64,000 nucleotides of DNA from a virus (IMGVR_UViG_3300028920_000004:31765-95764); one strand, 5' to 3'; positions 2 to 15,702 are shown, counted from the first letter of the stretch. Notes: generated from the letters alone by a model not told the origin. Numbers and translations: made by a program.

Positions 2-901
2 CCTATATATCCTTATTACAGTTGTTGTAGTATAAAAGGATATAGGATTCCTTATATATGGGCTAAAACATGGATAAAACAACCTAACAGATTTTCAGGA
101 TTACAAATAAGATTTGAAGAAAGAACATATATCAAAACTTCATCTTCTCCAGATATTCCTACCTTTGTAACCGATGGCAGAAAAAACTTAGAAACTTGGT
201 ATAAACCTGTCCAAAGATACTATCTCTATTATAATACAGGTCAAAGGTATGGACAATATTATGTAGATTCTCAATTATGTAGAAAATCATGTCCTATTAA
301 TGACCGATATTATTCTCCAGGTTTAGGGGAATATGCTGGAGACCGACCAGATATTTGTAAAATATGGACAAATATAGGAACTGGCACTTGTTCTGATTAT
401 GGACTTCCTAATGATGGATATGAATGTAGAGAAGGATTATATTATGTTTATCAATGTGCAGAATATGGCTATGATTGTAGACCTTATTATGATTGGATAG
501 GTGGAGGAGGAGTTACTTATTATGATGATAGAACTCATCCTGATTTAAGAGGAGCCAATAACCAAATTATAACTCCATATCCTCATGGAGGTTCTTGGTA
601 TCTACAAAATCCTTTAGATGCTGTAGATTTATGTGCTGTATGTTCTTCAGGAAGTCAAAGCGATAAATCAGGAGTAGATAATGAAGACATAGAAGAAATT
701 TGGGTTAGAGCTTATATTGTAGATAGTAAGGGAAATGAAATTACATTTGATAAAACTTTAGGAGCCAGCGAAGGAATTCAAAATGCAGAATTTGCGTATG
801 ACCAAGTAATTAATATTTTAAGAACTATCCATGAAAAAATAGAATCAGATGGAGATTTTACTTATAATCTATATTATTATGGTGGTCGAGGAACTGCTTA
901 A
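2..901 (+). CDS. Tyr/Cys-rich protein, 5' truncated, possible structural protein
   Basis: Frame 2 is open from the window edge to TAA at 899-901, giving 299 residues with no start inside the window. The product is rich in Tyr, Gly, Pro and paired Cys (for example CRKSCPIND and LCAVCSSGS) and has repeated YY steps. It ends in a more ordinary alpha/beta-looking segment followed by YYYGGRGTA. It is the only plus-strand gene in the left 58 kb and its 3' end overlaps the last 44 bp of the converging minus-strand gene. The composition would suit a secreted or virion surface protein (tail fibre or adhesin), but no family is recognised and that role is inference. The coding call is firm because the frame is long and uses phage-like codons. 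Confidence 0.8.
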   Translation, partial: PIYPYYSCCSIKGYRIPYIWAKTWIKQPNRFSGLQIRFEERTYIKTSSSPDIPTFVTDGRKNLETWYKPVQRYYLYYNTGQRYGQYYVDSQLCRKSCPINDRYYSPGLGEYAGDRPDICKIWTNIGTGTCSDYGLPNDGYECREGLYYVYQCAEYGYDCRPYYDWIGGGGVTYYDDRTHPDLRGANNQIITPYPHGGSWYLQNPLDAVDLCAVCSSGSQSDKSGVDNEDIEEIWVRAYIVDSKGNEITFDKTLGASEGIQNAEFAYDQVINILRTIHEKIESDGDFTYNLYYYGGRGTA

Positions 902-1640
902 AATAATCACCTTTTTTTAAAGCTTTACATTTAATAGTTTTTTTTATTATTTCTTTTCTTAATCTTTTTTGATTATATTTAGAATTGGACAATCGTTTAA
1001 AAAATTCTTCATAACTTATATTAGGAAACAAAGTTAAATTACTATCTCCTACCACTATAATCTTACATTTTTCTTCATTCTGAAAATATCCAAAATCTAT
1101 CATTTGTTTATTAGGACTATTATAATAGGCATCTTTGCCTATTCCTCTATGATTAATTTCTCCTTGATAATAATGAGTTAAATTCCTATTAAATTTCTTT
1201 TTATTTTTATTCTTTTTTAATTTGCCATAATCATACCCTAATAAATAAATATTGCCTTTATCTATCAAATAAATAGCTAAAGAAAGTGTAAAAACTCCTG
1301 CCAAATTTTTTCTATATACTCCATCTCTTAAATCTCTATTATAATGACCACTAGCATACAATCTTAAAGTATTTGGATAAGGAACTTCATCTTTACTTCT
1401 ATATGTTCCAATTAATAAAGGCAAAGAATCAATTTTATCATATTCGTGTTCATAAAATCCTTGATTGCTTTGTTTTGTTGGGTTATAATCTACATAAGAA
1501 GTAAAAGTAGAATCAAAATGTTTATAAGCATAATTTATAGTAATAACAAATTTATCTTTAATCTTATCTTTTAATCCTTGGCTTAATCCATCTTTAATAG
1601 AATAACCCCCTCCAATTATAATTACTTCATTGGGTATCAT
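858..1640 (-). CDS. Rossmann-like glycosyltransferase candidate (DUF115/sialyltransferase-like)
   Basis: 260 residues. The N-terminus EVIIIGGGYSIKD, followed by KFVITINYAYKHF and TSYVDYNP, resembles the nucleotide-sugar binding start of DUF115/MptE-like and GT42 sialyltransferase-type proteins. The later LLGYDYG and HRGIGKDAYYNSP also fit that fold. GT42 and related flagellin glycosyltransferases use CMP-activated acidic sugars, which would suit its position next to kdsA; this link is inference. The start overlaps the kdsA stop by 4 bp (ATGA). It is the last gene of the leftward glycan island and converges on the plus-strand gene at the window edge. Confidence 0.6.
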   Translation of the reverse strand: MIPNEVIIIGGGYSIKDGLSQGLKDKIKDKFVITINYAYKHFDSTFTSYVDYNPTKQSNQGFYEHEYDKIDSLPLLIGTYRSKDEVPYPNTLRLYASGHYNRDLRDGVYRKNLAGVFTLSLAIYLIDKGNIYLLGYDYGKLKKNKNKKKFNRNLTHYYQGEINHRGIGKDAYYNSPNKQMIDFGYFQNEEKCKIIVVGDSNLTLFPNISYEEFFKRLSNSKYNQKRLRKEIIKKTIKCKALKKGDYFKQFLDHHNNIDYK

Positions 1641-2419
1641 ATTTTACTCCAAGCTTCACTTATGATTTTTATAATATTTTCCATATCATCTAAAGGTAAT
1701 TGCGTAGCACTATCAGATATTGCTTTATCTGGTTCGGGATGAACTTCAATAAATATTCCGTCAACATATCCAGTAGCTATTGCTCCTTTTATCATAGGAA
1801 TTACAAATTCTCTATTTCCTCCTGATTTTCCTCCTTTAGATGGAATTTGTTGGCTATGTGTAGCATCGAAAATAATAGGATAATTTCCAAATTTTTTCAT
1901 AATCATAAAAGACCTAAAATCTACTATAAGGTTATTATATCCAAAACAAGTACCCCTTTCCGTTATCATAATATTCTTATTTCCAGTAGCTTCTACCTTC
2001 TCTATGACATATTTTATATCCCAAGGAGAAAGAAATTGACCCTTTTTTATGTTGACTTTTCGAGCATATCTTCCAATAGTGTGAATTAAGTCTGTTTGTC
2101 GGCACAAAAAGGCTGGAATTTGGACAATATCAGCTATTAGAGCTACTTTTTTGGCCTCTTCGACTGTATGGGTATCTGTTAAAATCTTAATGCCTTGTGC
2201 CTTGATTCTGCTTAAAATTCCTAATCCAGTTTCTAATCCTACTCCTCTAAGTGAATTATTAGAGGTTCTATTAGCTTTATCATAGGAAGCTTTAAATATG
2301 AACTCTATATTATCATATTTATCGGTAATTTCTTTAAGCTTTTCTGCGGTTTTTCGTGTGGTGGTTTCATCTTCGATGGCACAATTACCAGCAATTAGAA
2401 TAAGTTTTTTATTTTTCAT
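1637..2419 (-). CDS. kdsA: 3-deoxy-8-phosphooctulonate (Kdo-8-phosphate) synthase
   Basis: 260 residues, full length for KdsA. It condenses phosphoenolpyruvate with D-arabinose-5-phosphate to give Kdo-8-phosphate, the first committed step to Kdo for LPS core or capsule. Visible family motifs are IFKASYDKANR (41-51), IPAFLCRQTDL (101-111), NIKKGQFLSPWD (123-134), TERGTCFGYNNL (153-164), FDATHSQQ (184-191) and FIEVHPEP (223-230). Cys13 (AGNCAIE), His188, Glu225 and Asp236 line up with the metal ligands of the metal-dependent class (Aquifex type), unlike the Asn of the E. coli enzyme. A phage copy is unusual. KdsB and KdsC are not recognised in this window. Confidence 0.95.
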   Translation of the reverse strand: MKNKKLILIAGNCAIEDETTTRKTAEKLKEITDKYDNIEFIFKASYDKANRTSNNSLRGVGLETGLGILSRIKAQGIKILTDTHTVEEAKKVALIADIVQIPAFLCRQTDLIHTIGRYARKVNIKKGQFLSPWDIKYVIEKVEATGNKNIMITERGTCFGYNNLIVDFRSFMIMKKFGNYPIIFDATHSQQIPSKGGKSGGNREFVIPMIKGAIATGYVDGIFIEVHPEPDKAISDSATQLPLDDMENIIKIISEAWSKI

Positions 2420-2429
2420 TTGCTATCCT

Positions 2430-2831
2430 TTATAATTCTAACATTCCTTTCTTCTTCATTTCTGGTTCAGTATATTCTTTCCCTTTTATAACTTTCCCTC
2501 CTATAGATTCTCTATTAATATCATTAGGGTCTATTTTACCCTTTTCTACAAAGGCTAGTTCTACCATTATACTATCTTTTACCGCAAAAAATCTATGTTT
2601 GACTGGAGGACGGACTTCAAATATATCTCCTGGTTTTAAAACTTTTGACCCTCTTTCCGTTTCTATTCTTACCGCACCTTTAATAACTGCAAAACGATTT
2701 ATTTTTTTACTATGGGTATGGGTCGAACAAAAATAATTTTTCTTAACATTTAGTAGGTCTATCTCTGAAGTTCTGGTAAGAAGCAATCTTTGTCTAGTTC
2801 CCCAAATTTTGAATACGCTACTATCGTCCAT
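2430..2831 (-). CDS. cupin-fold protein
   Basis: 133 residues. A single cupin barrel is visible: HTHSKKINRFAVIKG (about 38-52) provides the His-rich first motif, then VLKPGDIFEVRPPVKHRFF (about 64-82) gives the second G(X)5P/H motif. Small cupins of this type occur as sugar epimerases, isomerases or ManC-type C-terminal domains. Lying between kdsA and a protease in a glycan island, a role in nucleotide-sugar or sugar-phosphate chemistry is plausible but not shown. It follows a small ORF with a 3-bp gap. Confidence 0.7.
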   Translation of the reverse strand: MDDSSVFKIWGTRQRLLLTRTSEIDLLNVKKNYFCSTHTHSKKINRFAVIKGAVRIETERGSKVLKPGDIFEVRPPVKHRFFAVKDSIMVELAFVEKGKIDPNDINRESIGGKVIKGKEYTEPEMKKKGMLEL

Positions 2832-2834
2832 GAA

Positions 2835-2969
2835 TTATTCCTCCTCTGATAATATCTTAGTTCTGTCCTTAATTACTTTTAGAGAATCTTTACCTCTTTT
2901 TCTAACCACATAATCGTAATCTTCTATCTCATCTTCTAATACCTTTTCTCTTTTATCCAAAACTAACAT
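2835..2969 (-). CDS. small charged protein, 44 aa
   Basis: A short open frame lies between the protease and cupin genes. The product begins MLVLDKREKV, is rich in Lys, Glu and Asp, and ends SEEE. An in-frame upstream ATG at 2993 would add 8 residues and overlap the protease end. Neither start has a strong Shine-Dalgarno site. It fills an otherwise unexplained gap and its composition looks protein-like. Function is unknown. Confidence 0.5.
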   Translation of the reverse strand: MLVLDKREKVLEDEIEDYDYVVRKRGKDSLKVIKDRTKILSEEE

Positions 2970-2979
2970 CTTAACATTT

Positions 2980-3927
2980 TTAAGGATTCTCATGAGTTTC
3001 TAATACCCTTTCTGTTTGGTTAATAAAGTTTTTAATATCTTCTAATTTAATCGCTACTGCAAGAGAAGGATATTTTTCTACATCTTGAAAAATAAATCCT
3101 TCTACATTATATATAATACCTACAACCACTCCTACTATTTGTCCTTGTCTATTTACTACCATTCCTCCAGAATTACCAGGAAAGGTTGGAGCACTTATAA
3201 GCATGTAATAGTTATAACTATCATTATATTTTCTTTTTATATAATTTGATACTATTCCTCGTTGTATGGTATAATGGAAACAATAAGGATGCCCTACAGT
3301 ATATATTTCAGACCCTTTAGCTGGTATTTTTTTAGATATATTAATAGCTGATACCTTTTGAATAGGTTTTTTTAGTCTTATAATAGATAAATCTAAATTA
3401 TCAGCTTTAAAAATATTAGAATTTTCTATTTCAAAAAATTCTTGAATATCGTCATTTAAATTTACCACTACTCTATATTTATCAGAATTTTTAACCACAT
3501 GTTTTGCGGTTAAAATCCATATATAATTTTCATCTATTTGATATATTGTTCCTGTACCTCCTACTTTTCCGCATATAATTTCTACTGTAGCTTTTTGTAA
3601 ATCTATAAAACTTGGAGTTTTTACATACTCATCTATTATGTTGTCATATATTATCTGTTGTATGCTTACTTCATTTAACATCTCTCTATTAGTAGATATT
3701 AAACTATCTACTATCTTTATCTTTTTATTTATTTTTTGAAAATTATTATCAGATTTTTCATCTACATTTTTAATCTTCTTCTTTTCTTTGACTAAATGAT
3801 TTTCCATCATCCTTATCCTATCACCTAAATGCTTATTAATATTTGTTACATTTTCTATAAATATTCCTCCCATAATTAAAACCCCTACCAAAATTCCTAT
3901 AAATCCTACTATTACCAATTTCTTCAT
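2980..3927 (-). CDS. membrane-anchored trypsin-like (DegP/HtrA-type) serine protease
   Basis: The longest frame starts at 3948, but a strong site (GGAAGTGAG) precedes the second Met at 3927, so that start is preferred (315 aa). Layout: N-terminal membrane segment (LVIVGFIGILVGVLIMGGIF), charged coiled coil (about 40-100), then a chymotrypsin-fold domain. Numbering from the longer form, the triad is His150 (LTAKHVV), Asp186 (NLDLSII) and Ser260 (PGNSGG). No PDZ domain is seen. The probable site of action is the periplasmic or outer face of the membrane. Next to a transglutaminase-like protein and the glycan island, it may act on surface proteins; substrate unknown. Confidence 0.85.
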   Translation of the reverse strand: MKKLVIVGFIGILVGVLIMGGIFIENVTNINKHLGDRIRMMENHLVKEKKKIKNVDEKSDNNFQKINKKIKIVDSLISTNREMLNEVSIQQIIYDNIIDEYVKTPSFIDLQKATVEIICGKVGGTGTIYQIDENYIWILTAKHVVKNSDKYRVVVNLNDDIQEFFEIENSNIFKADNLDLSIIRLKKPIQKVSAINISKKIPAKGSEIYTVGHPYCFHYTIQRGIVSNYIKRKYNDSYNYYMLISAPTFPGNSGGMVVNRQGQIVGVVVGIIYNVEGFIFQDVEKYPSLAVAIKLEDIKNFINQTERVLETHENP

Positions 3928-3944
3928 TTTACTCTCACTTCCTT

Positions 3945-4442
3945 TCATATTTTAAGCCAATCCCAATTCCTAAAATATTCTTTAAGAAAAGTATTGACAT
4001 TTTTATGGTAATTATTATCTGAAATCAAAAAATCAGTATCAAAAAAATGCCACTGTTGTTTATACCAAAATACACAAATACAATGCCCTCCTTGATTATC
4101 ATTGTGCATTAAATATAAATCGCTTGGAATATTAAGTTCTTGTAATAATGCTTTAGATAAAATAGCAAAATCTTCACAGTCTCCATATTTAAATTCTATA
4201 GTTTCTAAAGGAGTTTGCCAAAAATCATATTTATAGACTAAACTTTCGGATTTATATGTTATATTGGTTATTAACCATATTTTTATATCTTCAGGTGTTT
4301 TGATATTATTTTCAGATATAATATGTTGTATTTTATATCTATTTCCAGATTCAAAATATTTTATTACTTTGTCATAATGAGGATTATTAGATAATAACAT
4401 AATCATCATATATGCCAAAAGTATTTTATTATAAAATTTCAT
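3945..4442 (-). CDS. transglutaminase-like cysteine protease fold protein, secreted
   Basis: 165 residues. A short hydrophobic N-terminus (about 5-18) looks like a signal or anchor. The catalytic Cys, His, Asp order of the transglutaminase/BTLCP fold is visible: Cys89 in YGDCEDFA, His120 in GGHCICVF and Asp135 in HFFDTD. Such proteins are proteases or amidases in bacteria and phages. It lies directly upstream of the serine protease gene and ends inside its 5' region, so the two are co-transcribed and probably act in the same compartment. Confidence 0.75.
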   Translation of the reverse strand: MKFYNKILLAYMMIMLLSNNPHYDKVIKYFESGNRYKIQHIISENNIKTPEDIKIWLITNITYKSESLVYKYDFWQTPLETIEFKYGDCEDFAILSKALLQELNIPSDLYLMHNDNQGGHCICVFWYKQQWHFFDTDFLISDNNYHKNVNTFLKEYFRNWDWLKI

Positions 4443-4443
4443 A

Positions 4444-5319
4444 CTAATCCCCCATAACTTTCCTTAATCTTTTATTTGTTTTCTTCATTTTACAGTTCCA
4501 ATAATTAGTAAAAACTTTTTTCATATCTCTAGTAGCCACTACTAATTGTTTCAAATTATATTTATCTTTAGCCAATGTTTTAAATTTTTTTAACCCTCTT
4601 TTTCTATATTTTTCATATTCTTTTGGTTTATATTCTATATATTTACCAGAAATATCAATATTATAAAAAGATTTCCAATTTTTATTTTTAACTCTATATG
4701 CCCAATCTATATGTTCAGCCAATTTTAAATTTTCATCCCATTTAATATCTATAAGCATTTTAGTTTTTGCTATAAAAAAATTTCTATGAATGTCTACTGG
4801 TTGGAACATATTTCCTTCAAATATTAGATAAGGTCTTTTTGGACAATCCAATTTAAAATGTTTATTTGGGATTAATTCAATATCTCCTTCCCAAGGTACT
4901 CTTCCATTTATATCGAATCCGATAGTACCATATTTTTCATTACTATCTAAAAATCTTATAATATTATTAATATCATATTTATCAGTAAACAATAAAGAAT
5001 CTGCACTTATCCAACAATATTCATATCCTTTTTCTTTAGCTTTTTTAACTAAAAAGTTTCTAGCATAACTTAATCCACAATCAAAAGGTAAATTATAATA
5101 AGTTATACCATCTCTAAGTTGTCCGTACCCATAATCTGTAATATTCATACCAAAATTAGAAAATCCTTGTAATTTATCATTATCAGTTTTATAACTTTGA
5201 TTTCCTACAAAGATATGATAATTCGGATTCCAATTATCTAATATAGATTGGACAGATTTAATTAATAAGTCTTCTCTCAAAAATGTAGTTATAATTATCG
5301 CTGTTTTATTTTTTGTCAT
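4444..5319 (-). CDS. GT-A glycosyltransferase, paralogue 1 of 3
   Basis: 291 residues. The N-terminal half is a GT-A domain: AIIITTFLRED start, NLPFDCGLSYARNFL (about 98-112), then SADSLLF at the place of the metal-binding DxD. The acceptor part has KWDENLKLAEHIDWAYR. The same block (PF.CGL..ARNFL) occurs in the genes at 7594 and 10871, so the three are paralogues. The motif set recalls galactosyl/GalNAc transferases of the GT2/GT12 type. The C-terminus is basic. The start overlaps the phosphatase gene by 14 bp and has AGAGG upstream. Confidence 0.85.
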   Translation of the reverse strand: MTKNKTAIIITTFLREDLLIKSVQSILDNWNPNYHIFVGNQSYKTDNDKLQGFSNFGMNITDYGYGQLRDGITYYNLPFDCGLSYARNFLVKKAKEKGYEYCWISADSLLFTDKYDINNIIRFLDSNEKYGTIGFDINGRVPWEGDIELIPNKHFKLDCPKRPYLIFEGNMFQPVDIHRNFFIAKTKMLIDIKWDENLKLAEHIDWAYRVKNKNWKSFYNIDISGKYIEYKPKEYEKYRKRGLKKFKTLAKDKYNLKQLVVATRDMKKVFTNYWNCKMKKTNKRLRKVMGD

Positions 5320-5734
5320 AATAAACCTCTAAAATAGTCCTATATACTAACATATTAGGTAAATAATTATTAAAAATTTCAGCATCTTCTCCGTTAAATA
5401 TTTTACTTAATGCTCCTGCTACTCCTGCACTCCTACTTATACCTGCTTCACATTGACAAATAACTAAATTAATATTATTCTTATATTTGTTTATAAAATT
5501 AAGAATATTTTTAGCATCTTCTTGTGTGAATAATTTTACTTTTATGTCAGAATTAGGCATATGTAAACCATCTAAATCATGAAAATCTAACCAAAGTATA
5601 TCTAAACAATTTGCTTGTGAGGCTATCTTTCCTAATTCTATAGGATATTTTGGACTTCTTATAGAAATTATTATATGAGGTTTATTTTCTTGATAATTTT
5701 TTATTTCTCTTTCACTCATTACTAAAAATTTCAT
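5306..5734 (-). CDS. dual-specificity/tyrosine phosphatase-like protein
   Basis: 142 residues. The signature C(X)5R is present as CEAGISRSAG with Cys95 and Arg101, and a candidate general acid Asp lies in WLDFHDLDG (about 49-57). The length fits a minimal DSP domain. Such phosphatases recur in large phages; the substrate may be protein, RNA 5' ends or a sugar phosphate. It sits between a zinc ribbon and a glycosyltransferase in the same transcript. Confidence 0.75.
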   Translation of the reverse strand: MKFLVMSEREIKNYQENKPHIIISIRSPKYPIELGKIASQANCLDILWLDFHDLDGLHMPNSDIKVKLFTQEDAKNILNFINKYKNNINLVICQCEAGISRSAGVAGALSKIFNGEDAEIFNNYLPNMLVYRTILEVYYDKK

Positions 5735-5743
5735 AATATTTCC

Positions 5744-5941: not shown

Positions 5942-5944
5942 AGT

Positions 5945-6523
5945 TTACTCCTTATATCCATATTTTATTGCCATTCCTCTTATCATATCTGTAAAAACTG
6001 GACTAATTTTATATAAATCTTCCCAAATTAATTTTCTATGGATTCTCATATTAGCCCTACTTACTATTGGTCTTTTTTTATTTTTTATTCCTAATTCTTT
6101 GCACCATTTATTCCATACTTTAGGAAGTTCTTCTATCTTATATCTCCAAGAAGCTTTAGATTCTATAACCAAATTCCAACAATACCATGACCGCATACAA
6201 TTATAAATACTTTGATTTCTATGTTTTAAAGGGTCATCAAAAGGCACATATTTATTTATATATTCAAAACTTTGATTCCAAAGAGTAGTAGAAGAAGCAA
6301 TAACATTTAAAGGATGTCTTACTTGATGAATTATTTTATCAAAATTGCATTTAATAATATTCTCAGGGGAAGGTTTAGGAAACTCTCCATCCACACAATG
6401 CTTCCAAGAAACTGTATATTTATGCCCACTTCTTTCAAACATTGAATCTTCTCCTAAAGCTCTAAGAAGTTTATAAGTATACATAGTGGCTGACCTAGGA
6501 TGTCCTGTAATAAGATATTTCAT
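5945..6523 (-). CDS. sulfotransferase-like protein (P-loop)
   Basis: 192 residues. The N-terminal ITGHPRSATMYTYKLL (5-20) matches the 5'-phosphosulfate binding loop of sulfotransferases, and IIHQVRHPLNVIASS (64-78) matches the 3'-phosphate binding strand and helix with Arg and Ser. PAPS would be the sulfate donor; APS kinase lies about 6 kb upstream in the same transcript. The acceptor is probably a glycan. It could also be a sulfotransferase-fold protein with another activity. Confidence 0.72.
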   Translation of the reverse strand: MKYLITGHPRSATMYTYKLLRALGEDSMFERSGHKYTVSWKHCVDGEFPKPSPENIIKCNFDKIIHQVRHPLNVIASSTTLWNQSFEYINKYVPFDDPLKHRNQSIYNCMRSWYCWNLVIESKASWRYKIEELPKVWNKWCKELGIKNKKRPIVSRANMRIHRKLIWEDLYKISPVFTDMIRGMAIKYGYKE

Positions 6524-6921
6524 TATTTCCCTTCCTTGTTTATTTTCATTATACGTTCCACTTCTTCAATTAATTCTTCTGCACTTCTATAATTATGTTT
6601 ATAATGAAAATTAATAGCTTTATCATCAAATATAATATCAAAATAAGGTTTAAATCTACTATCACATAAATTAGGGTCTCTTGGAGGTTGTCTATTTATA
6701 GCATGATATTTAAAATTATTATCTTTTAACCATTTTTTTAATTTAGGAGTACACATCCTACCAGTAAAAAGACCTATCCAATATCCTTTATCATAATAAT
6801 GCTTCATAACATTTCTTATAGAAGCTACAGGACTTCCTAATTTATCAAACTCCCAAGGTCTAGTATAAGTAGCTATAACAGAATCAAAGTCAAACATTAG
6901 ATAGCCTTTATATTGTAACAT
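6523..6921 (-). CDS. HAD-like phosphatase
   Basis: The frame is open to 6957, but GGAGG lies 8 bases before the ATG at 6921, so the start is placed there (132 aa). HAD motifs are visible: FDFDSVIAT (motif I, two Asp), LFTGR (motif II) and DIIFDDKAINF (motif IV). The short cap-less form resembles phage HAD proteins. A sugar-phosphate substrate such as Kdo-8-phosphate is imaginable from context, but the KdsC signature is not present. The stop and start are coupled with the sulfotransferase genes on both sides. Confidence 0.75.
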   Translation of the reverse strand: MLQYKGYLMFDFDSVIATYTRPWEFDKLGSPVASIRNVMKHYYDKGYWIGLFTGRMCTPKLKKWLKDNNFKYHAINRQPPRDPNLCDSRFKPYFDIIFDDKAINFHYKHNYRSAEELIEEVERIMKINKEGK

Positions 6922-6922
6922 T

Positions 6923-7594
6923 TTATTCCTCCAAATAGGCTTCCCATTTAGTTCCAATTAATTTTTTCTTGATATAATTATAATTAATTATTAGTTTTTC
7001 TAAAGATTCTTTATTTTGTTTTTTAGTTACTGGTTTTAAATTTCTAACTTTAACTCCTAAAAATTTTTGTATCTTTTTTAATTCTTTGCTTAAATCTTTA
7101 CATAAATCTTCGTAATAAACTGTAATTATAGGATTATCTTTGAAATAATTATCTCCCCATTCTTCATTATTCTTTATTCCATTAATACGTTGAGCTAAAT
7201 CTATATAATCTACTTTTATCATTTTTTTGTTAAGAGAGGTTCTTTTTCTACCTCTTATTAATCTCCACCAACCAGTTTTACACGCAATAAGATGAGATAC
7301 TACTGTTCTTAATTTATTTTGTCTTTTAAGATGTATAACTGAAATATTTTTACTTTTGCACCATTTCCAAAAATCTGCATTTGCATGGTTATAAAATATT
7401 TTAACACCTGTTACTTTATAACGTAAATTTCCCCATATTCTTTTTTTCTCAGAAGCTATAGTTCTATTTCGTCTTTTTAATTTTTTATGGTCAAAGGTTT
7501 CATTATAACACCTTATATCAGAATGTTTATTTAAAGCTGATTGTATTATAGTAGAACCTGTTCTTTCTCTTGCTAATATAATAAATTTCTTCAT
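6923..7594 (-). CDS. sulfotransferase (Stf0-like)
   Basis: 223 residues. The start FIILARERTGSTIIQSAL (4-21) is a 5'-PSB loop of the Stf0 and sulfotransferase families, and VIHLKRQNKLRTVVSHLIA gives the 3'-phosphate site. YYEDL and KIQKFLGV near the C-terminus are also usual in this fold. Its likely donor is PAPS and the likely acceptor a carbohydrate, given five or more sugar enzymes around it. It overlaps the glycosyltransferase upstream by one base. Confidence 0.8.
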   Translation of the reverse strand: MKKFIILARERTGSTIIQSALNKHSDIRCYNETFDHKKLKRRNRTIASEKKRIWGNLRYKVTGVKIFYNHANADFWKWCKSKNISVIHLKRQNKLRTVVSHLIACKTGWWRLIRGRKRTSLNKKMIKVDYIDLAQRINGIKNNEEWGDNYFKDNPIITVYYEDLCKDLSKELKKIQKFLGVKVRNLKPVTKKQNKESLEKLIINYNYIKKKLIGTKWEAYLEE

Positions 7595-8769
7595 TATTTA
7601 TCCCTTTTTATTATAGTTAGAACATCTTCATATCCTTGTTTTAATAAATAATCTACTACAGGAAAAGATACTAATACCTCTAAATGGTTCTTATTAAAAA
7701 TTTTAGTATTTTCTGGCATATTTTTATATGAAATATTTTCTCCTATTTTTTCTTTAGAATATTTTGGATTATCAACTGCTACTTCTAAACGAGGGGTTTC
7801 TAAATCTCCATATACCACCCATCTATGACAAGTTTCTCCTAATAAGCAAATATATTTATTATATTTTTGTAACTCTTTAATCAACATTAAATTCTTTTTT
7901 GTGTAAACTGCTTTTTGAATAGTATCATCTTTTGAGGTTTCTATTTCAATTTTAAAATTTTTAGATTTAAGTTCTCTGAATTTATGCTCTGATACTTTAT
8001 GTAAATCTTTTAAAGTTTTTAACCCCATTTTTTCAAGATAAATTTTCCAGCTATCTCTTTTATTATCTGTTCTGGTTTTGGCATATTTACTAGTATCATC
8101 TTTCATTTGATGATTAACTACTACTGAGGGCACATAAGTAACTTTCCATTTAGTTTTCTTTAATCTAAAAAAGAAATCATTATGCTCAACCATTTTTAAC
8201 CTTTCATCCCACATTATATCCTCAAATATTTCTCTTTTGGCTAAAAAGAAATTTAAAGCTAATTGAGAATAATAATATTTAATATATGGATATTCTTTCG
8301 TAGTTTTCCATTCCCGACTTTCTTTATCTATTAAATAAAATTGATGATTAATATTATCTAGGTACATATCATAAGTATGAATATCTCTATTATTAACCCT
8401 ACCTGCTGATATGCCTATATATTTATCTTCATTTAAAACTTGTTTAAGAGTATTCAAATTTGTCTGTTCATAAAAATCAAAATCATTATCTATTATCAAT
8501 ATATAAGGTTCTGTTGATTGTTTGATTAAAAAATTACGAGCAAAAGACAATCCACAATTAAAAGGTAGATTATAAATCTTATGACCTTCTTTTTCTAATT
8601 CTTTAAAAAATCCCATTTCTCTAATATTAAATTTGTCTTGATTACCGACATAAAATCTTATTGTTGTAGGATAATATCTACGAATAGATTTTATTTCTTC
8701 TATGGTTTTATTTATCCTAGTAAAAGAAGGTATTATAACTGCTATATCTGGAATTTTCTTATAATACAT
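7594..8769 (-). CDS. GT-A glycosyltransferase with extra C-terminal domain, paralogue 2 of 3
   Basis: 391 residues. The GT-A domain (1-260) has AVIIPSFTR, NLPFNCGLSFARNFL (about 91-105), the metal motif IIDNDFDF and the acceptor block WDERLKMVEHNDFFFRLK, then VVVNHQ. The layout closely resembles GM2-synthase-type GalNAc transferases (GT12), as recalled from that family. About 110 further residues (280-391) form a second domain not present in the two paralogues and not recognised. It is co-transcribed with the KpsC-like gene. Confidence 0.85.
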   Translation of the reverse strand: MYYKKIPDIAVIIPSFTRINKTIEEIKSIRRYYPTTIRFYVGNQDKFNIREMGFFKELEKEGHKIYNLPFNCGLSFARNFLIKQSTEPYILIIDNDFDFYEQTNLNTLKQVLNEDKYIGISAGRVNNRDIHTYDMYLDNINHQFYLIDKESREWKTTKEYPYIKYYYSQLALNFFLAKREIFEDIMWDERLKMVEHNDFFFRLKKTKWKVTYVPSVVVNHQMKDDTSKYAKTRTDNKRDSWKIYLEKMGLKTLKDLHKVSEHKFRELKSKNFKIEIETSKDDTIQKAVYTKKNLMLIKELQKYNKYICLLGETCHRWVVYGDLETPRLEVAVDNPKYSKEKIGENISYKNMPENTKIFNKNHLEVLVSFPVVDYLLKQGYEDVLTIIKRDK

Positions 8770-9806
8770 TAAATTTCCTTTATTATTATTCTATCTTCAT
8801 AAGGATGTTGTAAAACTATTCTCTTAATATCTGTAAATAAATTCCATTTTTTATGTTTTACATTTTTCAAAATACATTCGCTATAGAAATTATATTTTAA
8901 ATAATATAAAAATCTTTTAACTTTGTTCATATCAGGATATTTAGTAAACATATTTATTATAGCTTCTATATCATATATAGATGATACTTTTTGATTTATA
9001 TCTTTGAAATTATAAAAAGCTTCTCCTACTATTACAACTGGTTTTTTCCACATCATAGCTTGTAAACCAATTCCAGAATTAATGGTCAATATTAAATCAG
9101 AATATTCTATCATTGATTTATAATGAAAATTATCTACAATTCTCAAATTTTTAGTTTCTTTGTTAATATGATATTTATCTTCTTTTTCTATTGGATGATT
9201 CTTTACTAAAAATAACCAAGTAGGATATTCTTGTGCCAATTTCTTAATCAATATATTAAAATTAGTAGTATTTTCAATCCAATTACTCCATAAAAGAGTA
9301 ACAGTATCATCATGAACTTGTAAAGGAACAAAAATAATTCTATTATATTTATTTAGATTTATATTTAACATATCACAAAAAAGCCCAAAAGAAGGTCTAT
9401 TATTTTTTTGAGTTTCTAATGAAGTATTGTCTTTTTTAAAATTATCAATATATTGATTTATTTTTTCTTTTTGAACTTCTGTTAAAAGATGATTCCATCT
9501 ACTTTCATCATAAGAAGAACTATCTACCAAAAATCCATTTTTATCCATAAATACAGTATTAGGCAAAGCCCCTCTTTCTATAATATAGACTGGATGATTA
9601 ATTTTTCTAAGATATTCATAAAGTTCAAATTTCCATTTATTTCTGTCAGTAACTAAATATCCATAAGGATTCCATAGAAGAACAGGATTTTCTGGAGAAA
9701 TATTATCACCTGCTCTAAGACTTTTTTTAGAGATATTTAAATGTTTTCTAAGCAATTTTACACAAGGATGATTAAAATCTGGAGTTAAAAATTTAAAAGT
9801 ATTCAT
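8769..9806 (-). CDS. capsule polysaccharide synthesis protein (KpsC/KpsS, GT-B Kdo transferase-like)
   Basis: 345 residues. The C-terminal Rossmann half carries the capsule-synthesis family pattern: FVPLQVHDDT (159-168), LVKNHPIE (200-207), SDLILTINSGIGLQA (236-250) and KKPVVIVGEAFY (254-265). KpsC and KpsS of group 2 capsules are beta-Kdo transferases that build the Kdo linker using CMP-Kdo. Together with kdsA 6.3 kb downstream this makes a Kdo-related pathway in the phage plausible. The N-terminal half diverges, so the exact acceptor is unknown. Confidence 0.75.
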   Translation of the reverse strand: MNTFKFLTPDFNHPCVKLLRKHLNISKKSLRAGDNISPENPVLLWNPYGYLVTDRNKWKFELYEYLRKINHPVYIIERGALPNTVFMDKNGFLVDSSSYDESRWNHLLTEVQKEKINQYIDNFKKDNTSLETQKNNRPSFGLFCDMLNINLNKYNRIIFVPLQVHDDTVTLLWSNWIENTTNFNILIKKLAQEYPTWLFLVKNHPIEKEDKYHINKETKNLRIVDNFHYKSMIEYSDLILTINSGIGLQAMMWKKPVVIVGEAFYNFKDINQKVSSIYDIEAIINMFTKYPDMNKVKRFLYYLKYNFYSECILKNVKHKKWNLFTDIKRIVLQHPYEDRIIIKEI

Positions 9807-10459
9807 TATATTTCCTTTGGATAATTAAAAGTCTTAAAATCTTCTTTATACCAAGCTATGATAGTTGATTTTTTCATTTCGTTATTATACAATTCTTTAT
9901 AATTTTTGTTTTTAGATTCTCTAATTTTAGGTAATTCTTTTATAATTATATTTGCATTTCTAAACGTCAATCTTAATCCATAATTAAAATCTAATTCAAA
10001 CTTAATAATTTTATTTATTTTAAATTCTTCTACAATATGACTTTGAATATAAGAATGAGCATCTTTATTGTAAATTCCTCTCGGCAAATAAGTATGTAAA
10101 AATTTTAAAAAACTAATACCTTCTTCCCAATCTTTCCTATATATTCCATAATTGGCTATTGTAGGAACTTTTTTTCCTCTAAATTTTTCTATTTTTTCAG
10201 GAGTTGACTGAATTTTATCAAGATATAAAGAAGCAATTCTGGTATAGGGATTTCTCACAACTATAAATTTTTTATAATCTGAAGGAATATCTTTAGCATT
10301 TATTAATAAATGCCTGGTAGAATCATGAATGTTATTTTCTTTTATTTCTAATCCCATACTATTTGCTATAATAAATTTAATAGTAGAACTACCAGCTTTT
10401 CCATTTACAATATATGCTAATTTACTATTAGGTATTAATATTGCTTTTATAGGTAACAT
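9806..10459 (-). CDS. carbohydrate sulfotransferase (Sulfotransfer_2/HNK-1 type)
   Basis: 217 residues. AYIVNGKAGSSTIKFI (15-30) is the PAPS 5'-phosphosulfate loop in the form used by chondroitin/HNK-1-type sulfotransferases, FIVVRNPYTRIASLYLDKI (65-83) is the 3'-phosphate site, KFELDF lies in the middle and the C-terminus WYKEDFKTFNY matches the usual ending (Y..DF..F.Y). This is the most convincing glycan sulfotransferase of the three in the island. It sits between the KpsC-like protein and an unknown basic protein. Confidence 0.85.
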   Translation of the reverse strand: MLPIKAILIPNSKLAYIVNGKAGSSTIKFIIANSMGLEIKENNIHDSTRHLLINAKDIPSDYKKFIVVRNPYTRIASLYLDKIQSTPEKIEKFRGKKVPTIANYGIYRKDWEEGISFLKFLHTYLPRGIYNKDAHSYIQSHIVEEFKINKIIKFELDFNYGLRLTFRNANIIIKELPKIRESKNKNYKELYNNEMKKSTIIAWYKEDFKTFNYPKEI

Positions 10460-10869: not shown

Positions 10870-10870
10870 T

Positions 10871-11635
10871 TTAATTCCTTTCTTTTAATTGTCCATTATG
10901 ATTTACTATATAAAATTTATTTACTTTCCAATTTATCTTAAAATATTTTAAATGTCTATTTCTTTTTCTTAATTTAGCATATTCAGAAGAAGGTAATTTA
11001 TGATTGTGTAATATTTTCATATCTGGACAATGACATATTCTTTGTTCATGAAGTTTACACTTTAAGAAATAATCAGCATGTTCGCCTCCAGAAATTTTTG
11101 TATCTTCATTCCAAGAATAAAGCAAAGCTTTAGTAGCTATCCAAAAATTAGGAACATAATCACAATAATAAAATTTAGTTTCTGGAGTTTCTTCCCATTT
11201 TTTACCTACATATTCTATGGGTATTCTTATAAATAAATTATATTCTGGTTCATATATAAATATACCTTCCCATTCTTGAACTTTTCCATTAGGTCTTGTA
11301 ATTTTACCACCTACTATATCTGCTACCCCTCTTTTTAATAAAGATTTTCCTATTTTTAAACTATCATCTTGAAATATAAAATCATCTTCCACAATAACAA
11401 TATATTTTTGCTTAACTTTATCCAAAAGAAAATTTCTAGCATATGGAAGACCGCAATCAAAAGGAACTTTATAATAATTTACAAAATTTCTTTCATATAA
11501 TTCAGTATCTATCTCTTTATTTTGGTCAGCGACATATATATGAATATCAGGATAAAATTTACTAATACTTTCTATACATTCCTTTATTGCTTTAGGTCTT
11601 AATATTGTAGTTAAAGTTATTGCAGTATCTTTCAT
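10871..11635 (-). CDS. GT-A glycosyltransferase, paralogue 3 of 3
   Basis: The open frame reaches a TTG at 11650, but AGGAGG lies 7 bases before the ATG at 11635, so the product is 254 aa. It has the GT-A start AITLTTILRPK, KVPFDCGLPYARNFLLDK, metal motif VEDDFIF and, later, the acceptor residues GGEHADYFLKCK and HNHKLPSSEYAK. It is clearly related to the proteins at 4444 and 7594. Probable inverting glycosyltransferase using a UDP-sugar. It overlaps nothing but shares a stop/start junction with the methyltransferase gene. Confidence 0.85.
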   Translation of the reverse strand: MKDTAITLTTILRPKAIKECIESISKFYPDIHIYVADQNKEIDTELYERNFVNYYKVPFDCGLPYARNFLLDKVKQKYIVIVEDDFIFQDDSLKIGKSLLKRGVADIVGGKITRPNGKVQEWEGIFIYEPEYNLFIRIPIEYVGKKWEETPETKFYYCDYVPNFWIATKALLYSWNEDTKISGGEHADYFLKCKLHEQRICHCPDMKILHNHKLPSSEYAKLRKRNRHLKYFKINWKVNKFYIVNHNGQLKERN

Positions 11636-11636
11636 T

Positions 11637-12281
11637 TTAATCCTCCTCAAACCAATTCCAAGATTTCATATCTCCTTTAAAATTAGGTTTAAAATAAGGG
11701 TCATCTGGAAAATAATCTTTAAGGGTTTCTATATCATACCATCCAGTTGTTAATTTAGGTAATTTTTTATTTTTTCTTTTCTTTACAAAACCTACGATAT
11801 TATATCTTATTCTTTTAAATCTGCCATTTCTTACATCAAACCCTGTTAATATTAAATTATACATCAAACTTCCAATATTCCAACCTGTAGAAATATGTCC
11901 TCCTACTATATTGTTTTTATATGGAGGTACTATCACAAAAAATATACCATTATCATTTAAAAGATTATATATTTTATTCAAAAATATTCCAGTATCTTGT
12001 ATATGTTCCATAACATGAGAAGCGAGAATGGCATCAAATTTTTTATTAAATTTGTAAGTCATAAAATCGCCTTTAATAAAATGATAGTTAGGGTGGTTAT
12101 AATTAAAATGCTTAGTAATATCTATAGAATAAAGTTCTTTATTATTTTTTGTAAAAAATTTAGTAATATCTGTATGTTTACCAGTGCCTATATCTAAAAT
12201 ACTGTTAAAATTATAAGTAAGAATTTTATTAAAAATTTCTATCATATCTCTTTTTTTTATATTCTTTATATTTGACATCAT
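11637..12281 (-). CDS. class I SAM-dependent methyltransferase
   Basis: The frame is open to 12293, but GGAAGGAATT directly precedes ATGATG, favouring a start at 12281 or 12278. Motif I is ILDIGTGKH, the acidic end of strand 2 is SIDITKH, and DAILASHVMEHI gives motif II/III of the Methyltransf_11 type. Adjacent FFVIVPPYKNN may be catalytic. In a glycan island, O-methylation of a sugar is likely, but a protein or nucleic acid target cannot be excluded. About 100 bp upstream of it hold only a 23-codon ORF. Confidence 0.8.
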   Translation of the reverse strand: MMSNIKNIKKRDMIEIFNKILTYNFNSILDIGTGKHTDITKFFTKNNKELYSIDITKHFNYNHPNYHFIKGDFMTYKFNKKFDAILASHVMEHIQDTGIFLNKIYNLLNDNGIFFVIVPPYKNNIVGGHISTGWNIGSLMYNLILTGFDVRNGRFKRIRYNIVGFVKKRKNKKLPKLTTGWYDIETLKDYFPDDPYFKPNFKGDMKSWNWFEED

Positions 12282-12391
12282 AATTCCTTCCATATTAATC
12301 CACTTCCATACTTCTGCAAATAATTAAAGAATTCTATTTATATAATTTCCATTTGATAAAGATTTTTTAATACTTACCCAATAATTTTTCA

Positions 12392-12919
12392 TCATATTAT
12401 CTTATTATCCTCTAAATATTTTATTACTTTATTTGTAGATTCTTCTATAGTTTCTGTTTCAGTATCACATATAATTTCAGGATTTTTAGGGGCTTCATAT
12501 GGGTCATCAAATCCAGTAAAGCCTTTAATTTTACCTTTTAATGCTTTTTTCCACATTCCTTTAACATCTCTTTTTATACATTCTTTTACAGAGGCTTTGA
12601 CAAAAACTTCGACAAAATTTGTAACATTATTTCTTATATTCTCTCTTGTTTTTGCATAAGGACTTACAAATGAAGCAATTACTACTACTCCATTTCTTGA
12701 TAAAAGTTTAGATACAAAATTTATTCTATTTATATTTTTATCTCTATCCTCTTTAGAAAATCCCAAATCATTACTTAATTTTCCTTTTCTTACTATATCC
12801 CCATCTAATCGTTCTACTCTTTTTCCTCTGTTATATAGTTCTTTAGCCAATTCATCTGCTATTGAACTTTTTCCTGAACAAGGAATTCCAGTAAACCAAA
12901 CTACACATCCTTTTTTCAT
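12392..12919 (-). CDS. cysC: adenylylsulfate (APS) kinase
   Basis: 175 residues, full length for a single-domain APS kinase. It phosphorylates adenosine-5'-phosphosulfate to PAPS, the donor for sulfotransferases. Walker A is GIPCSGKSS (11-19); ERLDGDIVRK (36-45), LGFSKEDRDKNI (52-63) and the family signature FTGFDDPYEAP (134-144) are all present. It lies between the PiT-type permease gene and the methyltransferase, upstream of three sulfotransferase-like genes. No ATP sulfurylase (CysD/N or Sat) is seen, so APS must come from the host. Confidence 0.95.
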   Translation of the reverse strand: MKKGCVVWFTGIPCSGKSSIADELAKELYNRGKRVERLDGDIVRKGKLSNDLGFSKEDRDKNINRINFVSKLLSRNGVVVIASFVSPYAKTRENIRNNVTNFVEVFVKASVKECIKRDVKGMWKKALKGKIKGFTGFDDPYEAPKNPEIICDTETETIEESTNKVIKYLEDNKII

Positions 12920-12935
12920 AAAAGGTCTCCTTAAA

Positions 12936-13883
12936 TTATATTTTATTTATTATAGTAGCAATTAGATATACAATAGAAAATCCCAAAATTGGAGACATTA
13001 TCCAAGTTAAAAAACATTTTTTAATAGTTTTTATTCCTAATTTCTTTATACCTTTTCCTCTATTAGCTACCCCAAATCCAAAAACTGCAAAAGAATTTAA
13101 TTGTACTAAAGATTGAGGAAGACCTATCAAAGATGCACTAATTAATAAACTACCTGTTACTAAACTTATAATACCTGCCGATATTAAATCTAATTGTGTA
13201 ACTTTTTTTCCTATAGACTGTAAATTTCCTTTGCCTAAAACAAATCCTCCTATTCCAAAAAAAGGAGCAAGTATAAAAGTCGCTAATTTACTTGTCATAA
13301 TTTGTGCTCCTGCAAAAACACCTGAAGCATTAGCTACATTATTAGACCCTATGCTAAAAGCAGTATAACAACTTGTAAGTATATCCCAAAATTTAATAGA
13401 ATTATGTTTAAAGTCTTTTATTTTTGGATAAATAAATTTACCACATAAAAAAGTAATTAAAAAAGCAGAAAAAGGTAACACTATCCATAAAGGAATCATT
13501 CTTTGAAAAATTTCCCATTTAACTGCATTATGATAAGCTCCATACCCTACAATACTAAAAACTGTAATTTGACTTGTAGAGGCTGGTATTTTAAATAAAT
13601 TAGCTAAAAATAAAGCAATAGTAGTTCCAGTAAAAATGATTAATGCACTTTTTATGTTCAATAATTCTGGATTTATTAATCCTTTACTGATTACTTTCAC
13701 TACTCTAAATCCTAATAAATAAGCCCCTAATAATACAAATATTGCAAATAAAATAGAAGCTTTTTTTCTTGATATTATCCCTCCTCCATATTCTGCTGAA
13801 AAAGTAGGAGCAATACCAGACCCTCCCATATTAACTGCAAATAAAATTCCTAAAAATATTAAACCTATTACTAATAAATTCAT
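12936..13883 (-). CDS. PiT-family permease, probably sulfate (CysP-like)
   Basis: 315 residues with about nine or ten hydrophobic segments. The two inverted family repeats are visible: FAVNMGGSGIAPTFSAEYG (about 15-33) and AFSIGSNNVANASGVFAG (about 175-192), plus KIPASTSQITVFSIVGYG and GLPQSLVQLNSFAVFGFGV. PiT proteins carry phosphate, but Bacillus CysP, of the same family, carries sulfate and, as recalled, has NxGxSG in place of the first N-D repeat, as here. Being 16 bp upstream of cysC strengthens sulfate as substrate; this is inference. Confidence 0.85.
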   Translation of the reverse strand: MNLLVIGLIFLGILFAVNMGGSGIAPTFSAEYGGGIISRKKASILFAIFVLLGAYLLGFRVVKVISKGLINPELLNIKSALIIFTGTTIALFLANLFKIPASTSQITVFSIVGYGAYHNAVKWEIFQRMIPLWIVLPFSAFLITFLCGKFIYPKIKDFKHNSIKFWDILTSCYTAFSIGSNNVANASGVFAGAQIMTSKLATFILAPFFGIGGFVLGKGNLQSIGKKVTQLDLISAGIISLVTGSLLISASLIGLPQSLVQLNSFAVFGFGVANRGKGIKKLGIKTIKKCFLTWIMSPILGFSIVYLIATIINKI

Positions 13884-13900
13884 AAATTCTCCATTATAAT

Positions 13901-14539
13901 TTAAAGTTTTTTTATTTTCGGAAAAATTTCTAAAGCCAATTTAAGAATCATATATGGACTATAATGATTCATGTTTAATAAATATTTTTTTATATTTTGC
14001 TTATCCATTAATATAGTAGGATTAAGAAACTCAGTATTTAAATTATTATGACAATATTCATCTAAAGTTTGTATCATTTTTGTTCTTGAAGGTTTATTGT
14101 ATATATTATGATTACTCACAAACAATATAGGTTTATTATCTAACAATTTATGAATTTTTTTTAATTTGGCTACATAATTATCAGAATAAACTTTTTTATA
14201 TTTAGTATGTTTATAAAATTTAGGAAAAGGAGATAAATAATAACCATGTTCGCACAAATAATTAGTAACTCCGCTAATCTCTATTATATATTTATCTATT
14301 TTATTAATAGGAATAGTTATTTTTTTTGTTTTAATACATTCTAAATTTCCACTCCGTTTATTTATAATATCCTTATGATTAGGTCTAATACCTTTTAAAA
14401 TTTCTATAGCTTGAATAATTTGTTCTAACGTATGCAAATGCGGTAAAATCATATATAATTCCATAGAAGTATCTTTACATCGTCTATATACTCTGGTTGG
14501 ATTTTTTACTCTGCAACTTCCAATAGTTAATATTTTCAT
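13901..14539 (-). CDS. SGNH/GSCFA-like hydrolase candidate
   Basis: 212 residues. ILTIGSCRVKNPTRVYRR at the N-terminus resembles block I (GxS) of SGNH or GSCFA/DUF6270-type esterases, YIIEISGVTNYL sits where a Gly/Asn block is expected, and NMNHYSPYM near the end could supply the catalytic His. Such enzymes acetylate or deacetylate glycans. The match is by eye and weak, so the function is provisional. It overlaps the kinase gene by one base. Confidence 0.5.
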   Translation of the reverse strand: MKILTIGSCRVKNPTRVYRRCKDTSMELYMILPHLHTLEQIIQAIEILKGIRPNHKDIINKRSGNLECIKTKKITIPINKIDKYIIEISGVTNYLCEHGYYLSPFPKFYKHTKYKKVYSDNYVAKLKKIHKLLDNKPILFVSNHNIYNKPSRTKMIQTLDEYCHNNLNTEFLNPTILMDKQNIKKYLLNMNHYSPYMILKLALEIFPKIKKL

Positions 14540-15180
14540 TAATTCTTTTCATCCTCTATATTAAAAGGTATTACTAAATTTGCTAAAGATTTGCTCTGGC
14601 ATACACTATTATATTCTCTTTCCACTACATATTTCCTAAATTTATTTTCGGGATTTTCTTTTCCTCTATTAGCTCTAAATTTAAAAGTATCTTCAGGATT
14701 TCCATCTAGATAAACCCCATAATCAAATAAATTACCATATAAAGCATATAACCCTTCTACTATTAAAAGGTCAATATTTTTAGAGTTACAAATAGAAAAT
14801 TCAATACTATCTATATACATATGTATTCTTTGAATATATAATTTCTTTTCATTATTTTTAAAATTCTTTAATACTTTATTAAATTTCTCCCACATTATTT
14901 CTTCTTTACCTATTATATCAGTTTCTTTTCTAACTTTATTTCTTATATGCCAATTAGTCTTATAATAATCATCTAGATGTAATACCTTATTTTTAATATT
15001 ATATTTTTTATATAACTGTTCTTGAATAACATAAGCACATTCTGTTTTTCCAGTTCCGCTTACTCCTGTAATAGCTAATATAAATTTACTGTCTTTTTTA
15101 TATTTTTTAAGAACTTCCGCTAAAATAATTTCTGCTTTTTTTTCATGCAAAGGTAATATATTTACTCTATCTCCAATCAT
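14539..15180 (-). CDS. uridine kinase/phosphoribulokinase-like P-loop kinase
   Basis: 213 residues. Walker A is AITGVSGTGKTECA (about 35-48), followed by VLHLDDYYKTNW, which is characteristic of uridine kinase and PRK-type enzymes, and LLIVEGLYALY. FRANRGKENPENKFRKYVVERE has the Arg-rich lid. It could phosphorylate a nucleoside or sugar; placed beside cysC and glycan genes, supply of nucleotide-sugars is one possibility. The start is ATG with a conventional context. Confidence 0.75.
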   Translation of the reverse strand: MIGDRVNILPLHEKKAEIILAEVLKKYKKDSKFILAITGVSGTGKTECAYVIQEQLYKKYNIKNKVLHLDDYYKTNWHIRNKVRKETDIIGKEEIMWEKFNKVLKNFKNNEKKLYIQRIHMYIDSIEFSICNSKNIDLLIVEGLYALYGNLFDYGVYLDGNPEDTFKFRANRGKENPENKFRKYVVEREYNSVCQSKSLANLVIPFNIEDEKN

Positions 15181-15194
15181 CTTATCCTCACTTT

Positions 15195-15350
15195 TTAGAC
15201 AAATTCATATTTTCCATTACCTACATATTTTCTTTCATATTTTTTTTGACAAAAAGGACAATTAAATTTACCTTCACCTATCATTTTAACCACAAATATA
15301 TGTCCACATTCACAATTTATAGTTATAGTATTATATCTTTTATTTTCCAT
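15195..15350 (-). CDS. small zinc-ribbon protein, 51 aa
   Basis: A short gene whose start overlaps the nucleotidyltransferase end by 11 bp and is preceded by AAGGAG. The product has NCECGHIF and NCPFCQKK knuckles about 17 residues apart, then a basic tail. Minimal zinc ribbon, function unknown. Confidence 0.75.
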   Translation of the reverse strand: MENKRYNTITINCECGHIFVVKMIGEGKFNCPFCQKKYERKYVGNGKYEFV

Positions 15351-15702
15351 TATTTTTTCTCCTTATTTCGGTAGCACTAATTGATTCTGTTTCTTTATCC
15401 AATTTAATTTCATTTATGCCCCAACCAACTTTTCTTCCATGGCAAACTTCTTTAATATCTGGAAGAGTAACATATTTAACCCTTCCGCTTTTAATTTCTT
15501 CCCTAAATTCTTTTCTTATCATTTCAACTCTTTCTCTAACAGTATAAGGATTTTTATCATCTATTTTAGTATCTCTTATTCCTATACAAACTTTTCCATT
15601 TTTATTTAAAACAGTTCTTATTAATTGTATATGTCCAGCGTGAAGCGGTTGCCATCTCCCAATAAATAAACTATATTCTCCTGTAAAATTATTATTAGAC
15701 AT
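15340..15702 (-). CDS. cytidylyltransferase-like nucleotidyltransferase (NMNAT-type fold)
   Basis: 120 residues. SLFIGRWQPLHAGHIQLIR (about 11-29) holds the GxWQPxHxGH nucleotide motif of the HIGH superfamily, and SISATEIRRK near the C-terminus is the second signature (ISxTxIR). NMNAT and pantetheine-phosphate adenylyltransferases have these; bacterial ATP sulfurylase has QxRNPxHxxH instead. The protein is short. Close to cysC, a link to APS formation is tempting but not supported by the motif. SD AAAGGA precedes the ATG. Confidence 0.75.
   Translation of the reverse strand: MSNNNFTGEYSLFIGRWQPLHAGHIQLIRTVLNKNGKVCIGIRDTKIDDKNPYTVRERVEMIRKEFREEIKSGRVKYVTLPDIKEVCHGRKVGWGINEIKLDKETESISATEIRRKNNGK

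Follow-up and report, generated by a model that had tools for sequence, protein, structure and literature searches.

The stretch analysed here (the window, 64,000 nucleotides) corresponds to bases 31765-95764 of the 95,764-base linear IMG/VR contig IMGVR_UViG_3300028920_000004, and carries an island of about 20 leftward genes which, with reasonable probability, is a phage-encoded module for sulfate activation and sulfotransfer, with a small HXGH nucleotidyltransferase making adenosine 5'-phosphosulfate (APS). Since the contig encodes baseplate-wedge-like and tape-measure-like proteins outside the window, and a family B DNA polymerase together with other replication genes inside it (the window encodes RecA, primase-helicase, RuvB-like and RtcB proteins), the virus was identified as a tailed phage. 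The presence of the gene island, described in the original prediction as a sulfated-glycan island, was confirmed, and its reading as a sulfation module was supported. The coordinates, open reading frames and leftward gene run given there were right: all annotated genes from 17365 down to 858 lie on the minus strand, spaced by no more than 159 nt and often overlapping. Three genes had not been named, namely a protease (2980-3948), a transglutaminase-like protein (3945-4442) and the HXGH nucleotidyltransferase (15340-15702).

In the proposed pathway, sulfate would be imported by a CysP-like permease, the nucleotidyltransferase would couple it to the adenylyl group of ATP to form APS, the kinase CysC would phosphorylate the 3'-OH of APS to give 3'-phosphoadenosine 5'-phosphosulfate (PAPS), and two or three sulfotransferases would transfer the sulfate from PAPS to a glycan. 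This glycan would be built or extended by the GT2 and KpsC/KpsS-like enzymes of the phage, with 3-deoxy-D-manno-octulosonate (Kdo) derived from KdsA. The likely result is a modified glycan at the surface of the infected cell; the virion is a less probable site. As enzyme families, the predicted kinase and sulfotransfer steps are well supported. With the preceding step, the phage family is proposed to encode its own PAPS synthesis. The genes assigned to import, activation and transfer are:

15340..15702, minus strand: small HXGH nucleotidyltransferase, 120 aa, proposed APS-forming enzyme (CTP_transf_like PF01467, 8.6e-10)
12936..13883, minus strand: PiT/CysP-family permease, probable sulfate importer (PHO4 PF01384, 1e-36)
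12392..12919, minus strand: APS kinase CysC, PAPS-forming (TIGR00455, 212.7 bits, cut-off 138.7)
9806..10459, minus strand: sulfotransferase, Sulfotransfer_2, HNK-1 type (PF03567, 3.5e-11; NGKAGSST and VRNPYTRIAS motifs)
6923..7594, minus strand: sulfotransferase, Sulfotransfer_3/1, Stf0-like (PF13469, 5.1e-12; PF00685, 1e-9; PF09037, 3e-9)
5945..6523, minus strand: probable sulfotransferase (PF13469, E=0.0027, below cut-off; motifs)

The nucleotidyltransferase and its APS kinase partner

The island proteins were scored with Pfam and NCBIfam profiles at curated cut-offs. CysC is almost certainly an APS kinase: it exceeds the TIGR00455 cut-off, keeps the P-loop and the DGDxxR, DLGFSxxDR, RDxKG and FTGxDxPYE motifs, and has APS kinases as its closest solved structures. 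The CysC proteins of close relatives (L006 9776-10522, L007 945-1655) have an N-terminal membrane segment, which is absent from the window CysC.

The nucleotidyltransferase was closely linked to CysC in phages. Of the 90 phage loci gathered for the presence of CysC (60 clusters at 85% identity), 57 have the nucleotidyltransferase within 10 kb of CysC, and in 18 the two form one polypeptide, in both domain orders. Fused forms occupy several separate positions of the CysC tree, some beside unfused relatives, and in two fusions (L017 and L103) the kinase part exceeds the TIGR00455 cut-off. With the nucleotidyltransferase as the sole query, 77 of the 80 phage loci retrieved had CysC, in almost every case as the next gene, and the nucleotidyltransferase was not found in 401 kb of random contig fragments. 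In 61 cysC phage records no ATP sulfurylase exceeded its cut-off; PF01747 gave seven matches there, all below the cut-off, and each coincided with a nucleotidyltransferase position.

A similar relationship was found in bacteria, where the window nucleotidyltransferase alone gave no match in a genome scan and a tighter alignment used as the query did. A CysC-like gene lies within 10 kb in 48 of 80 bacterial or archaeal nucleotidyltransferase loci (15 fused). Neither Sat nor CysD was present in 41 of 50 bacterial genomes with the nucleotidyltransferase; Sat occurs in 6, CysD in 4 (three over the curated cut-off, one partial) and both in 1, two further genomes with weak CysD-family matches alone being counted as lacking CysD. 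The baseline was a set of 148 genomes from the order to which the Flavobacteriales-type genome G127 belongs. In this order apsK was present in 64 of the 148 genomes and CysD in 58 of those 64, and all six apsK genomes without CysD have the nucleotidyltransferase beside CysC, compared with none of 22 CysD-positive loci sampled. The association between CysD absence and the nucleotidyltransferase gives a Fisher p of 2.7e-6, but four of the six (G127, G133, G135 and G137) were known beforehand to carry it, and the cleaner evidence is the two blind finds, G283 and G302, in which the nucleotidyltransferase was found on checking to adjoin CysC directly. The G302 operon comprises CysC, the nucleotidyltransferase, DeoC, CysQ, a flippase recognised by eye and three sulfotransferases, with CysQ and the sulfotransferases above their cut-offs; the G283 operon is the same by eye. 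Judged by its gene families, the G302 operon reads as a whole sulfation pathway from which ATP sulfurylase alone is missing. Comparable CysQ/sulfotransferase sets were found at L189, L195, L197 and L198. The Flavobacteriales operon of CysC-nucleotidyltransferase-DeoC-CysQ-flippase-sulfotransferase type, in genomes without CysD, lies at L312 (1667-8424) and L322. In Marinimicrobia loci (L209 9577-10336 and similar), a short APS-kinase-like protein overlaps the nucleotidyltransferase gene, with Sulfotransfer_5 nearby.

Because CysC needs APS, the cysC phages have no ATP sulfurylase over cut-off, and the nucleotidyltransferase and CysD complement each other in bacteria, comparative genomics makes it likely that the nucleotidyltransferase forms APS. 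It may work like an ATP sulfurylase though it stands outside that family. We lean slightly towards a broader proposal, in which it would represent a third class of ATP sulfurylase that has so far escaped recognition, would constitute with APS kinase, often as a fusion, a compact PAPS synthase in phages and bacteria without Sat or CysDN, and would let phages carry out glycan sulfation of their own during infection.

The protein carries the motifs GRWQPLHAGH, IRDTKIDDKNPY, PDIKEVCHGRKVGW and ISATEIR. R43 and R90 (window numbering) do not vary across 34 family members, and neither do residues within the HXGH and ISAT motifs. Two memberships were rejected. The closest family is nicotinamide mononucleotide (NMN) adenylyltransferase, whose model scores 56 bits against a cut-off of 127 and aligns with the first half alone, the full-length NMN-binding region being unmatched. 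For Sat-type (PF01747) or CysDN enzymes, PF01747 gave 12-14 bits in seven family members (cut-off 24.3).

Several observations weigh against APS formation by the nucleotidyltransferase. In both sequence and fold it is closest to NMN adenylyltransferase (NMNAT) rather than to ATP sulfurylase; a Foldseek search with its AF2 model (mean predicted local distance difference test, pLDDT, 91) returned NMNAT and phosphopantetheine adenylyltransferase (PPAT) in the top 50 and no ATP sulfurylase, and the claim of APS function therefore cannot rest on fold. The nucleotidyltransferase also occurs in Stenotrophomonas, Xanthomonas and Clavibacter phages, and the three such proteins inspected are fusions with a shorter kinase without the APS-kinase lid (L337 4584-5324, L338 5590-6321 and L339 4578-5324, in the cultured Stenotrophomonas and Xanthomonas phages Bhz60, DLP6 and AhaSv), with no annotated sulfotransferase beside them in these three phages. 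These lid-less fusions imply that the family may be non-uniform and that its substrates may differ. In bacteria, 32 of the 80 loci have no nearby CysC, mostly in Dadabacteria and Nitrospirales, Sat is also present in three Nitrospirales genomes with the nucleotidyltransferase, G119 has CysD plus a nucleotidyltransferase adjoining CysC in one genome, and incompleteness affects many of the bacterial genomes. The solo nucleotidyltransferases of the Dadabacteria and Nitrospirales loci (e.g. L192 9944-10408) stand among unrelated genes with no CysC within 10 kb. The short-kinase fusions are annotated as kinase or hypothetical, and in Bhz60 NADAR and MazG genes are their neighbours.

Two other explanations of the nucleotidyltransferase were considered. 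A surface glycan could be sulfated with APS drawn from the ATP sulfurylase of the host, the nucleotidyltransferase being an NMNAT or another nucleotide-sugar enzyme loosely tied to CysC. NMNATs are indeed its nearest families, a gene annotated as NADAR stands beside the Bhz60 fusion, NAD salvage genes are common in phages, and NadR is itself a fusion of an NMNAT with a P-loop kinase. However, the partner in fusion or adjacency is a true APS kinase over the TIGR00455 cut-off (L017, L103) and not a ribosylnicotinamide kinase, the nucleotidyltransferase falls far under the NMNAT cut-offs with its first half alone matched, and it lies within CysC-CysQ-sulfotransferase operons of bacteria without CysD, which makes this explanation unlikely. 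Less probable still is that the nucleotidyltransferase makes another activated anion (ADP-X or CDP-X), to which a CysC-like kinase adds a 3'-phosphate and from which sulfotransferase-fold enzymes move X, by analogy with the cytidine diphosphate (CDP)-phosphoramidate pathway of Campylobacter capsules. The CysC homologue Cj1415 of Campylobacter is a cytidine diphosphoramidate kinase, and short lid-less kinase partners do exist, but the window CysC retains the lid of APS kinases and reaches 212 bits with the apsK model, a CysP-like permease and sulfotransferases of several families are encoded in the island, and the partner enzymes of the Campylobacter pathway belong to other families. APS formation was thus retained as the preferred function of the nucleotidyltransferase.

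Sulfotransferases beside cysC

Three sulfotransferases had been named in the original prediction. Two of them (6923 and 9806) were clear by Pfam as PAPS-dependent enzymes, and the third (5945) is probable, since its PF13469 match stays below the cut-off and its assignment comes from two PAPS-binding motifs recognised by eye, GHPRSAT near the N-terminus and VRHPLNVIASS. A homologue of the 5945 protein is present in the cysC phage L142; its AlphaFold model (pLDDT 34, from an alignment of two sequences) was uninformative and was not used. Use of PAPS by the island sulfotransferases is highly probable. For the permease, PF01384 and a top NCBIfam model of CysP sulfate permease (NF053884, 1.2e-63) agree with the PiT/CysP-like call, and the NF053884 score of 215 bits is below the cut-off of 400.

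Sulfotransferase families were sought in the cluster representatives of the cysC phages, PF03567 on the first 20 records alone. The co-occurrence of cysC with sulfotransferases in related phages, which the original prediction had proposed as a check, was borne out, and in unrelated phages too: 32 of 45 sulfotransferase-family matches (on 32 non-redundant contigs, sub-threshold matches included) lay within 6 kb of cysC, where an even spread predicts 8.2. A sulfotransferase-family match was present on the contigs of 32 of the 60 cysC clusters and of 3 of 46 random contigs, a comparison inflated by longer contigs, so the distance to cysC was preferred as the measure. The published explanation assigns phage cysC, as an auxiliary metabolic gene, to assimilatory sulfate reduction, the route by which PAPS yields sulfite and then cysteine (PMC10914622, PMC8190135). 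This explanation, with sulfotransferases nearby only incidentally, is very improbable and fits this set badly because sulfotransferases rather than PAPS reductase accompany cysC: clustering at cysC is four times the expectation, PF01507 (CysH/CysD) exceeds its cut-off in just 5 of 61 cysC phage records and was not found in the window phage, and no sulfite reductase was among the island proteins scanned.

In related islands the theme is constant and the individual genes are replaced. The gene order in L007 is HAD, nucleotidyltransferase, CysC, three sulfotransferases, an 884-aa protein in which glycosyltransferase and KpsS-like parts are joined, a further gene, NlpC-like and DUF115-like, followed by opposite-strand genes that look structural or tail-like; unlabelled genes were assigned their roles by eye. 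L006 has CysC, a sulfotransferase, DUF115-like, GT2-like and KpsS-like genes, a second sulfotransferase, methyltransferases, and radical-SAM-like and pyruvyl-transferase-like genes, with roles assigned partly by eye and otherwise by homology or profile matches. The window sulfotransferases used as queries gave no matches in scans of close relatives, which indicates that the island genes diverge fast.

Other island genes and the proposed sulfated target

The remaining features of the island, all on the minus strand, are:

858..1640, minus strand: DUF115/GT42-like protein (motif alone, no Pfam match)
1637..2419, minus strand: KdsA, Kdo-8-phosphate synthase (TIGR01362, 341 bits, cut-off 314)
2430..2831, minus strand: cupin (PF07883, 27.5 bits, cut-off 27.2)
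2980-3948, minus strand: trypsin-like protease, membrane-anchored (PF13365, 3e-20)
3945-4442, minus strand: transglutaminase-like protein (DUF553)
4444..5319, minus strand: GT2 glycosyltransferase (PF00535, 3.5e-6)
5306..5734, minus strand: DSP-type phosphatase, weak (PF00782, 7.9e-5, below cut-off)
6523..6957, minus strand: HAD-like hydrolase (tblastn 43-54%; no curated Pfam match)
7594..8769, minus strand: GT2 glycosyltransferase (PF00535, 3.6e-6)
8769..9806, minus strand: KpsC/KpsS-like glycosyltransferase, candidate Kdo or related transferase (Capsule_synth PF05159, 1e-15)
10871..11650, minus strand: GT2 glycosyltransferase (PF00535, 5e-11)
11637..12293, minus strand: S-adenosylmethionine-dependent methyltransferase (PF13489, 9e-12)
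14539..15180, minus strand: PRK/uridine-kinase-like P-loop kinase (PF00485, 6e-7)

The profiles bore out most of the earlier assignments, namely CysC, KdsA (whose TIGR01362 score also exceeds those of DAHP-synthase models), the three GT2 enzymes, the methyltransferase, the Capsule_synth protein and the PHO4 permease; the cupin passed by a narrow amount. Other assignments held in part. For the KpsC/KpsS-like Kdo transferase candidate (8769), which has a 44% homologue in L007, the Capsule_synth domain is clear, and the KpsS and BFO_1060 NCBIfam models match, KpsS far below its cut-off. The DUF115/sialyltransferase-like call drew no Pfam support, its basis being motifs and homologues (39-43%) in three cysC phages (L007, L081 and L097). 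The HAD assignment rests on tblastn homologues, and the phosphatase stayed under its Pfam cut-off. The HAD protein could act on a by-product, e.g. pyrophosphate or PAP; it is joined to the nucleotidyltransferase in L004 (6460-7182) and L005, and adjoins it in L007.

The sulfated target is probably a surface glycan. As to purpose, masking or exclusion is about as likely as not, the other candidate being decoration of the virion. KdsA suggests a Gram-negative host. The G+C content of the island (25%) is close to that of the window (27%), so composition gives no sign of foreign origin. Elsewhere in the window, the RtcB ligase (39928-42087) is split, probably by an intein, the insert being of the LAGLIDADG type, and a full-length M42 aminopeptidase (35090-36157, 8e-70) is encoded by the phage.

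Comparison with known systems

Phage cysC and phage sulfotransferases, each by itself, and bacterial sulfated capsule clusters are already known. A literature search, which did not cover subscription papers and preprints, found no description of sulfation by phages or of the nucleotidyltransferase as a sulfate-activating enzyme. Within that literature, the linked phage sulfation module and the candidate non-homologous sulfate-activating enzyme are apparently new. If the proposal is true, sulfation would stand beside glucosylation and acetylation as a phage means of rewriting cell surfaces, many phage cysC genes would be reassigned to surface chemistry and no longer to sulfur assimilation, bacteria that have APS kinase and no known ATP sulfurylase would be supplied with the missing step of their sulfate pathway, and a small one-piece PAPS synthase could be useful for sulfated sugar production.

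Rhizobial NodPQ-NodH is one example of a bacterial locus that combines PAPS supply with a sulfotransferase. In bacterial sulfated capsule clusters, for example that of Vibrio sp. KMM 8419 (PMC11641403), PAPS supply, sulfotransferases and glycosyltransferases share one locus, as in the island; unlike these clusters, the island lies on a tailed-phage genome, is without CysDN or Sat, and shows rapid gene turnover from one related phage to another. Phage cysC and sulfotransferase genes have been reported singly as auxiliary metabolic genes, with cysC assigned to assimilation and the function of the sulfotransferase called unclear (PMC10914622, PMC10580990). The island shares these gene families, and here they form one linked module. 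In PAPS synthetases (PAPSS1/2 and the Aquifex Sat-CysC; APS kinase/sulfate adenylyltransferase fusions are listed in PMC4921024), a sulfate-activating domain is likewise fused to APS kinase, in either order, whereas the putative activating domain of the phage, an HXGH protein of 120 aa, is closest to NMN adenylyltransferase and falls outside the Sat and CysDN classes of ATP sulfurylase. COASY (PPAT joined to dephospho-CoA kinase) likewise pairs an HXGH adenylyltransferase with a P-loop kinase acting on the 3'-OH of the product, but its substrate is phosphopantetheine, and the proposed substrate in the phage is sulfate. Phage serotype conversion, carried out by O-antigen glucosyl- or acetyltransferases, is alike in that phage enzymes alter a surface glycan of the host, while the chemistry proposed for the island is sulfation with dedicated synthesis of the donor.

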